Below, one piece after another: positions 35,138 through 48,195 of a DNA stretch of 64,000 nt. Each line of letters begins with the position of its first letter. The first letter of the stretch is position 1. The position numbers and the translations under genes were made by a program. The stretch covers positions 25,001 to 89,000 of the forward strand of contig CAJHNH020001597.1 in assembly GCA_905116865.2 (NCBI GenBank), read 5' to 3'. The notes under the pieces were generated by a model. It searched no databases. It saw only the letters and a list, made by a program, of their open reading frames with translations, and was not told the DNA's origin. This stretch comes from Candidula unifasciata. Its lineage: Eukaryota > Mollusca > Gastropoda > Stylommatophora > Geomitridae.

Positions 35138-35227
35138 TACAAGACAAAAACAGTTGAGCTGCCAAGGAGAAGAGTATGATTGCTAGTATGACCGTCGTAC
35201 CAATCAATGCAGGCTCCAGAATACTCA
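35138..35227 (-). CDS. Ig-like gene exon: transmembrane segment
   Basis: Acceptor TTTTCAG, donor GTAAGT, phase 1 on both sides, 30 codons. It reads SILEPALIGTTVILAIILF and then SLAAQLFLSC, a clear membrane helix. Entry phase matches the preceding Ig exon. Confidence 0.75.
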
Positions 35228-47400: not shown

Positions 47401-48195
47401 TTATAAAATGCAGTTATTGCCTGTCGCCTGTCCTCTTTTTGACAGTGGCGAGGAAAGACAATTTAAATTTTACTTTTTAAGTATCTTCATGCCTTCTTTA
47501 ATAATGTCACAATTTATAGCCGACTTTCCTTGATTTTCGCCGCGGCACACCTGGCATACGCACCCAGTTTGAGAACCTCTGCCGTAATGCCTAGGTCGAG
47601 TCAGCAGGCAAAGACCTTGCCAGCTGCTGTACCACGCAACCGGGTCGCAGTTTCCTCCGCTACGACAGACTTAGGCAACAGTAACTATTGTGTTATTGAG
47701 AGAGTTATTTCAATCCATCGCAGTGTATGCAGAAACGAGTGTAAGGTAACCACTATTCGTATTCGGCCCGACCGCAACTATTCGGCTGAATACTGAATAG
47801 TTATTTGGTCTACTATTCTGCCCCGATGCGAATACGAAGCAAATATTCTGTACAGCCCTACTTATTAAAAGCGAATAATAATTTTTTTTTTGTAAACCAC
47901 CTCAGAAGGTTGGCACCAGAAAAAAAAACTTGAGTATTTCCACAAACACTGTCAACTGTTTGTTGCCATCCGGTGTGTGCCAGCCTCCATCAAAGCAAAG
48001 CTGTGTGGTACTAAATGAGATTGCGACTGCATGACAGCTTTTGGCAAGCCTCCAAGTGTAATATGCCCTAACAGAGGGATCGAAAAATAAGGCTACAGAC
48101 TGAAATAACAGCTCACCTTGATCTCCTTCTGTTTGTGCAGTAGTTAAGAAAACATACAACAATCCAAAGAGCAATAAGAAAAGTGCACGAGACAT
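35138..48195 (-). CDS. Small Ig-like single-pass membrane protein (partial, 4 exons; cytoplasmic end not found)
   Basis: Joined on the minus strand: 48195-48117 (signal peptide), 41743-41533 and 39475-39330 (ectodomain), 35227-35138 (TM). Phases are 1, 2, 1, 1 and agree at each junction. The protein starts MSRALFLLLFGLLYVFLTTA (secretory signal), then about 120 ectodomain residues with Cys44, 77, 94 and 122, sequons NIS (62) and NTT (123), and a hydrophobic helix. Cys44 (VELEC) and Cys122 (HTFLC) would be the B- and F-strand cysteines of an Ig-like fold, with Cys77/Cys94 as an extra pair. The reading frame stays open after the TM exon, so at least one more exon exists. No kinase exon was seen in the remaining minus strand of the window. 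Family unknown; a cell-surface receptor or adhesion role is inferred from topology only. Confidence 0.72.
35480..35860 (-). mobile_element. RNase H domain fragment of a LINE
   Basis: Minus frame reads HAGVLGNEQADRLAGSAPPG (the RNase H C-terminal His/Asp region), DKMGVVRTLWERVN, and ends LLLKMGTERLWGCPECCDVD. Related fragments: 3320-3570 and 16460-16815 (+), 32335-32470 (-), 42985-43085 (+), 56330-56965 (+), 63500-63720 (-). All are broken except short open stretches. Confidence 0.78.
35870..37190. other. Unassigned sequence, likely intergenic or minus-gene downstream
   Basis: Poly-A run at 36130-36153, a LINE 3' terminus (36960-37035), no supported exon. It lies in an intron of the minus-strand Ig-like gene. 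Confidence 0.5.
37195..37610. repeat. 31-32 bp minisatellite, about 13 units
   Basis: Unit TTTGCTCAGATCTCTCTTAT plus AATGACACTGTC. Confidence 0.93.
37610..37992 (+). mobile_element. LINE 3'-end copy (ATGATG-tailed family)
   Basis: Shares the sequence of the copies at 51.9 and 52.9 kb: the CYRKSFGISST-like start, a poly-A interruption near 37795, the [16 protein letters not shown] segment with changes, and the tail CTACATGATGATGATG. Several stops, so defunct. Confidence 0.75.
37992..39040. other. Intron of the Ig-like gene, no exon seen
   Basis: Contains the (TA)n array, poly-C (38350-38368) and unassigned sequence. Confidence 0.5.
38412..38480. repeat. (TA)n microsatellite
   Basis: About 33 TA units with one break. 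Confidence 0.95.
39040..39310 (+). mobile_element. LINE 3'-end fragment, diverged
   Basis: Nucleotide similarity to the copies at 49630-49870 and 51890-52205 through ATTGGCTCATAAACAGCATC and the following GAAAGCTGAGGCATTT, with multiple stops. It stops 20 bp before an exon of the minus-strand Ig-like gene, so it is intronic there. Confidence 0.6.
39330..39475 (-). CDS. Ig-like gene exon: C-terminal half of ectodomain
   Basis: Acceptor TGTTTCAG, donor GTACAA; phase 2 in, phase 1 out; 146 nt. It reads PDSGAVSLRILITKFDV and then STAHTFLCNTTK, with SAVWALTVDKP as a G-strand-like end. The S-L-R-I-L-I-T ... T-F-L-C pattern is typical of strands E-F of Ig domains. Confidence 0.82.
39837..40100 (-). 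mobile_element. LINE RT C-terminal fragment, third family
   Basis: Minus frame reads GCSRKAANLTIRDRVNNN and TIRQFVGTTPCTRFI, the segment after the RT palm domain in these LINEs; frameshifts follow. Similar in kind, not sequence, to RRAVGVTIRDKIMNE of the 24.5 kb copy. Confidence 0.65.
40640..41015. repeat. 64 bp minisatellite, about 5 units
   Basis: Unit GCCATCTGTAGTTCACCATA, GAGAAAGTCCTTGGGGACTC, TTACCTCCATCCTCGGTGTGTCTG. Confidence 0.9.
41533..41743 (-). CDS. Ig-like gene exon: N-terminal half of ectodomain
   Basis: Acceptor GTTGCAG, donor GTAGGT; phase 1 in, phase 2 out; 211 nt. It reads ADFSVVELECKAKVYFDDH (beta strands with Cys) and QFLRGQCPTIEDSANAD, ending LPACMET. Coding character is clear against the AT-rich flanks. 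Confidence 0.8.
43405..43640 (+). mobile_element. LINE RT C-terminal fragment (copy of 61880-62150)
   Basis: Shares GCAATGGACATCACAAGG, GGTGAACCTTTGAGACTG and the segment ending in GGGGATTGAATGAGTGAA with the copy at 61.9 kb. Frame broken. Confidence 0.7.
44360..44490. repeat. ATC, TTC and ATT trinucleotide tracts
   Basis: Three consecutive trinucleotide arrays directly before a reverse GAA-tailed SINE, i.e. its expanded tail. Confidence 0.9.
44700..44935 (+). repeat. tRNA-derived SINE, family 3
   Basis: Head GTGGCTAAAGGCGTTGCGAA and GTGCCGGGTTCGATCCCAGC are good A- and B-box-like motifs. Body includes GGTTTCGACAGTGGTATCGA. Minus copies at 43120-43380 and 56965-57195. Confidence 0.75.
45090..46315. 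repeat. 58 bp minisatellite, about 21 units
   Basis: Unit GGGTTATGCCTGATGTATTT, TCATGTCTATGATATTTCAG, TGTTTTTTGTCCACTGTC. Variants (GTC/GGC, GATG/GATA) recur at regular spacing, suggesting higher-order copies. Confidence 0.95.
46808..47860. mobile_element. hAT-like non-autonomous transposon with 8 bp TSD
   Basis: Ends are TAGGGCTGTACCGAATAGT on the left and the reverse complement TAGGGCTGTACAGAATAT on the right, flanked by a perfect 8 bp duplication CTTATTAA (46800-46807 and 47861-47868). Subterminal arrays of CGAATACGAATAGT-like repeats occur at both ends. An 8 bp TSD and TAGGG/CAGGG-type termini are hAT hallmarks. No transposase frame; a LINE copy is nested at 46895-47335. Confidence 0.88.
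46895..47335 (-). mobile_element. LINE 3' end nested inside the hAT-like element
   Basis: Minus-strand sequence matches the element at 54050-54590 (segments reading as SCLRAP..., FGHVMSRGKHVVTT and the ATGATGATG tail at 46897-46911). Poly-T (47194-47213) interrupts it. It inserted after the hAT element did. Confidence 0.7.
48117..48195 (-). CDS. Ig-like gene exon 1: signal peptide
   Basis: ATG at 48195 with codons MSRALFLLLFGLLYVF followed by LTTAQTEGDQ; donor GTGAGC at 48116; phase 1 out. Hydrophobic core and Ala-containing cleavage region are typical of a secreted or membrane protein. The start is the only ATG leading directly into the hydrophobic core. Confidence 0.72.

Follow-up and report, generated by a model that had tools for sequence, protein, structure and literature searches.

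A kinase-free, single-Ig surface-protein gene of land snails beside a receptor tyrosine kinase in Candidula unifasciata

Sodium-channel beta1 and myelin P0 are type I membrane proteins with one V-set immunoglobulin (Ig) domain, a short stalk, one transmembrane (TM) segment and a short tail, and FGFRL1, a kinase-free membrane protein with three FGFR-type Ig domains, is believed to act on the FGFRs as a decoy or co-receptor. Here we compare with these systems a gene, gene A, that occupies positions 48195-35138 of the minus strand in a 64,000-nucleotide stretch of the genome of the land snail Candidula unifasciata (the window; C1596:25001-89000, where C1596, like C384 and C2210 below, labels a contig of the same assembly, 1.34 Gb in total) and that has a receptor tyrosine kinase (RTK) gene as its plus-strand neighbour. 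The original prediction for this locus had proposed that gene A is perhaps related to the RTK and could serve as a decoy or co-receptor. That attractive but weak account gives way to a testable one, in which gene A, real but ordinary-looking, encodes one of a small family of surface proteins with a single Ig domain, so far found only in land snails and not recognized by Pfam; with a probability of roughly 0.77, gene A belongs to a kinase-free, single V-set-like family of this kind and the RTK is merely a neighbour.

The closest counterparts of gene A are two proteins of other land snails and slugs, the hypothetical protein BsWGS_29212 of Bradybaena similaris (P0001, 248 aa) and the uncharacterized protein A0A0B7AA31 of Arion vulgaris (P0002, 288 aa), whose whole layout is the same; no structural difference is seen, the tail exon of gene A not having been located. 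The layout is also that of sodium-channel beta1 and myelin P0, but the gene A sequence matches no solved structure (E up to 10). Gene A is like FGFRL1 in being a kinase-free Ig-type membrane protein, but the full-length BsWGS_29212 and A0A0B7AA31 each have a single Ig-sized domain. FGFRL1 is described as a member of the FGFR family with a histidine-rich C-terminal motif (PMC2806250), a tail that is unmatched here, as the 42-residue tails of the Bradybaena and Arion proteins hold 0 and 1 histidine, respectively. Gastropod FREPs are, like gene A, gastropod members of the Ig superfamily (IgSF), though they are described as carrying a fibrinogen domain, and none is listed in BsWGS_29212, A0A0B7AA31 or a second Bradybaena protein, BsWGS_17438 (P0003, 387 aa).

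Gene A encodes a type I membrane protein, in which a signal peptide, called by eye, is followed by one V-set-like Ig domain with four cysteines, spread over two exons, and then by a conserved 30-residue stalk and a TM helix. The four exons named in the original prediction (48195-48117, 41743-41533, 39475-39330 and 35227-35138) are all present, with GT/AG splice sites and in-frame joins. The first is an open reading frame (ORF) with a GT donor that carries the start codon and the putative signal peptide (MSRALFLLLFGLLYVFLTTAQTEGDQ), ends in phase 1 and is 70% identical to residues 1-27 of BsWGS_29212. The second (211 nt, phase 1 to 2, 70% identical) encodes the first half of the Ig-like domain with Cys44, Cys77 and Cys94, and the third (146 nt, phase 2 to 1, 62% identical) encodes the second half, with strands E-F-G, Cys122 and the sequon NTT; both lengths are the same in a paralogue on C2210. 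A further exon had been missed, at 38112-38023 (90 nt, phase 1 to 1, splice sites in phase), which encodes the juxtamembrane stalk DSTKSTDTDYTGHTWLPDPAYKMLTGLERE, is 87% identical to the Bradybaena stalk and adds 30 of about 149 ectodomain residues; it intervenes between the Ig and TM exons, which had been taken to join directly. The TM exon (35227-35138) ends in phase 1 and lies within an 82% identical match to residues 177-213 of BsWGS_29212. Translated through the TM exon, the assembled product has 205 residues and carries sequons at 62 and 123. The first intron of gene A also contains a tandem array of 21 copies of a 58-bp unit (45108-46318).

A query of gene A without the stalk matched a single protein, BsWGS_29212, with 60% identity over the query (E up to 10, 76 candidates), and the two ectodomains are 66% identical. 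BsWGS_29212 has the stalk as well as its 42-residue tail after the TM segment. A profile of four sequences (BsWGS_29212, gene A, the C2210 gene and gene B, a tandem paralogue described below) matched BsWGS_29212, A0A0B7AA31 (51% identical to BsWGS_29212), BsWGS_17438 and a fourth protein of 83 aa, P0004 (E up to 1, 4939 candidates). None of the first three has a kinase, which bears out the earlier description of gene A as a kinase-free, single-pass, Ig-like surface protein. BsWGS_29212 and A0A0B7AA31 share the tail pattern SQSKM....KSGPLE..PFYASV, suggesting that the missing 3' part of gene A encodes a similarly short, non-catalytic tail ending in PFYASV. The tail of BsWGS_17438 is longer, distinct from these and matched by that of the C2210 gene, so that two subfamilies can be told apart by their tails, with gene A as type 1 and the C2210 gene as type 2. 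Every database match with a named source comes from a stylommatophoran, whether land snail or slug, a distribution to be read with the search method, which finds relatives sharing short exact words with the query, and other molluscs are thus not shown to lack the family.

At least three such genes are present in this genome: gene A, gene B and the type-2 gene, a count of family size that rests on two whole-genome searches, one with 80 of 275 candidates scored. When the whole assembly was searched with BsWGS_29212, all 11 candidates were scored and five matched at E 0.001, namely four gene A exons and one on C2210. The C2210 gene, read from C2210:40000-67000, has half-Ig exons at 57178-56968 and 53744-53599, a TM exon at 49179-48907 and, near 46.2 kb, what is probably its tail exon. 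Gene B, read from C1596:89001-157000, has minus-strand exons at C1596:101426-101228 and 99335-99193 and a probable TM exon at 92144-92070 (76426-67070 on the scale of the window, and outside it), and its first exon found is 28 kb upstream of the gene A start; the stretch read showed no recognizable exon for its signal peptide or stalk. Phases 1-2-1 flank the Ig halves in gene A, gene B and the C2210 gene, with lengths of 211/146, 199/143 and 211/146 nt, respectively. Among 10367 ORFs of at least 25 residues from the window and the loci read, hidden Markov models (HMMs) of the half-Ig exons recovered these three genes, which by construction were part of the profiles, at E 1e-22 or better, and the next best had E 0.1 and 0.36. 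The family keeps the CP motif and the cysteines on either side of it without exception, and in five of the six ectodomains the F-strand cysteine is immediately followed by a sequon.

The assignment of the domain comes from a predicted model with an Ig beta-sandwich fold, in which strand 40-45 carries Cys44 and strand 118-127 carries Cys122, the two being placed for the canonical B-F disulfide; both cysteines are invariant across four aligned family ectodomains. The 50 VIA-align rows listed point to a V-set-like fold and include no FGFR Ig domain, which excludes nothing, and the Foldseek list has Nav1.4-beta1 at rank 6. Structure prediction for the RTK exon by itself failed (pLDDT 38.5). The family profile matched solved structures only at E 0.2 or worse, and these were unrelated; none of the four database proteins reached the cut-off of a Pfam family.

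The rival that gene A arose from the adjacent RTK as a paralogue without a kinase, by duplication of the ectodomain and TM segment with loss of the kinase, and shares its ligand as a decoy or co-receptor, is favoured by the adjacency of the two genes and by the four cysteines of both membrane-proximal domains. In the RTK these lie at 16, 63, 77 and 103 of the exon at 593-968 (plus strand; predicted phase 0 to 1, 5' border uncertain), which covers the latter half of a putative Ig domain that has a P/T-rich insert. The pair spacings of 17 in gene A and 14 in the RTK, the GRC or GQC ahead of each pair, the strands after it, and the sequons NTT and NTS are also as first described. These cues are kept in the kinase-less family but are absent from the closest RTK paralogue found, on C384, and were therefore rejected as evidence of kinship: the comparable exon at C384:72845, with the same predicted start phase of 0, has three cysteines, none spaced 14 apart, lacks both GRC and a sequon in the corresponding position (an NVT stands elsewhere in it), and shows GVYMC, Ig F-strand-like by eye, at the position of GVYIF in the window RTK. 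The phase-1 TM border was likewise set aside, such borders being common at Ig exon borders; cysteine spacing, sequons and phase-1 borders are all common in Ig domains and easily suggest kinship of neighbouring genes. BLASTP of gene A against the RTK ectodomain gave a best E of 3.1 in an alignment out of register with the proposed one, profile-profile comparison with hhalign gave a probability of 0.08% from shallow alignments of 4 and 2 sequences, and the search of the 10367 ORFs with the half-Ig HMMs left the RTK exon unlisted (E up to 10). The domain intron is in phase 2 and 3' of the cysteine pair in gene A, gene B and the C2210 gene, whereas in both RTKs it is predicted in phase 0 and 5' of the pair, an argument weakened because a second possible acceptor in the window RTK, at 777/778, would give phase 2 in agreement with the family, though still 5' of the pair. 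The 40 kb read from C384 (66001-86000 and 106001-126000) showed no family exon, and the whole-assembly search gave no BsWGS_29212 match on C384, nor was there a kinase match on C2210 among the 82 matches listed (80 of 275 candidates scored) or in C2210:40000-67000. A kinase at the missing 3' end of gene A was also rejected, as no minus-strand kinase exon was found in the window and the homologues are without one.

Shuffle tests covered 24 pairs, six family ectodomains against four RTK pieces. Against the whole RTK exon, z was 3.5 for A0A0B7AA31, 2.2 for gene A, 1.6 for the C2210 gene and below 0.8 for the remaining three, while within-family positive controls reached z 11-28 in five of five. 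A true relation could be hidden here, and the tests cannot exclude ancient kinship, because the RTK compared with its own C384 paralogue gives an ectodomain z of just 0.9; what they do show is that the similarity cited is poor evidence of kinship. We infer that gene A adjoins the RTK by neighbourhood, with no reliable sign of descent from it, and the paralogue reading is very unlikely.

Several observations weigh against the reading that gene A belongs to a separate V-set-like family. In the shuffle tests A0A0B7AA31 gave z 3.9 and 3.5 against two overlapping RTK pieces (p 0.005-0.006, 24 comparisons), with gene A at 2.8 and 2.2 against the same pieces and the other 20 pairs at 2.0 or less, and the Arion result leaves a remote kinship of the family with the RTK open. 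The Ig call derives from a model built on six alignment rows, with a mean pLDDT of 61.6 and a pTM of 0.50; no Pfam Ig model was found at E up to 10 for the gene A product or the four database proteins with HMMER filters that drop most weak matches; and the strand-C tryptophan usual in Ig domains is absent. Downstream of gene B, the minus strand has a lone glycine-loop-like GKGAFGNV at 63572 (E 4.8). Finally, no 3' exon for the cytoplasmic tail of gene A was found at 35137-18700 or elsewhere in the window, although the tail is well conserved between Bradybaena and Arion. This last absence is what one would expect if the RTK, on the opposite strand, were nested within gene A's final intron and the tail exon of gene A lay beyond window position 1, an arrangement compatible with the other readings. 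It would require an intron of more than 35 kb; divergence or splitting of the tail exon, or its absence from the assembly, would account for the result equally well, and the whole-genome search with BsWGS_29212 listed no separate tail match; we consider nesting unlikely.

A somewhat less probable proposal is that gene A encodes an innate immune or self-recognition receptor, a membrane-bound protein comparable in role to the IgSF portions of FREP-type lectins. The V-set-like fold, the small tandem family and the restriction of named matches to Stylommatophora would suit it, but no fibrinogen or lectin domain is present in BsWGS_29212, A0A0B7AA31 or BsWGS_17438, only two tandem copies are seen on C1596, and with the stalk 87% and the ectodomain 66% identical to BsWGS_29212 the protein is not hypervariable at this distance. 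An adhesion or a co-receptor/auxiliary-subunit role seems the most likely from the sequence, at around even odds, ahead of immune recognition, which is doubtful, and of an RTK decoy by descent, which is more doubtful still. The least probable of the readings considered is that a land-snail-specific single V-set family, marked by the conserved second cysteine pair, a strongly conserved DTDY..WLP stalk exon and the PFYASV tail, has its type-1 gene physically interlocked with an FGFR-like RTK locus, and that the product of this gene modulates the RTK, which it binds in cis through the conserved stalk.

If gene A is a member of the separate single-Ig family, the family would never have had a kinase, rather than descending from a kinase gene that lost one, and its V-set domain would bind a partner either in cis or on a different cell. 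A further cysteine pair, C77-C94, could form an extra disulfide bracing the edge of the domain, and the conserved stalk and PFYASV tail, whose YASV we take to be a YxxV-type sorting or docking signal, might place the product in a complex or control its uptake.

The neighbouring gene is an RTK, as first proposed. Assembled from 10 plus-strand exons (593-18642), it encodes 539 residues, with its N-terminal ectodomain outside the window. A juxtamembrane and TM exon (2308-2459, phase 1 to 0, its 5' border not placed precisely) is followed by eight exons for the split tyrosine kinase and C-terminal tail (5844-6012, 7691-7801, 9450-9648, 10737-10851, 12276-12398, 14710-14821, 15583-15679 and 18477-18642). 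The kinase spans positions 2-258 of the 258 of Pfam PF07714 (E 1.1e-80) and carries HRD, DFG, VAVK and the glycine loop of a tyrosine kinase, and among the best 60 of 2590 solved-structure matches an EGFR-labelled entry is first and the remainder are FGFR1 or FGFR2. The RTK ectodomain matched none of 2636 candidates in the protein collection at E 0.001, a search in which relatives longer than 943 aa could not be candidates. The C384 paralogue (68740-106325, plus strand) is 58-85% identical over seven matches from the juxtamembrane region to the C-terminal tail, its ectodomain having diverged far beyond the kinase, and its exons contain GDYTC as well as GVYMC, both F-strand-like patterns by eye. 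The two RTKs may stem from the genome duplication that is reported for Stylommatophora (PMC12328838). By eye, C1596:18126-18258 may be a further RTK ectodomain exon, although it is out of phase with 593-968. The kinase insert of about 60 residues (9450-10851) contains, by eye, a near-repeat.

Scans of the window for Rfam families and tRNAs gave 0 matches. A dispersed repeat is copied in two RTK introns (1921-2197 and 17193-17465), 96% and 88% identical over two blocks, and the ORF with GKGAFGNV at 63572 resembles, by eye, a dispersed repeat also seen at 35412-35768. Other large tandem arrays consist of 43 copies of a 25-bp unit (21939-23010) and 19 copies of a 33-bp unit (33995-34654), and some arrays read as long open frames, for example at 21548-23113.
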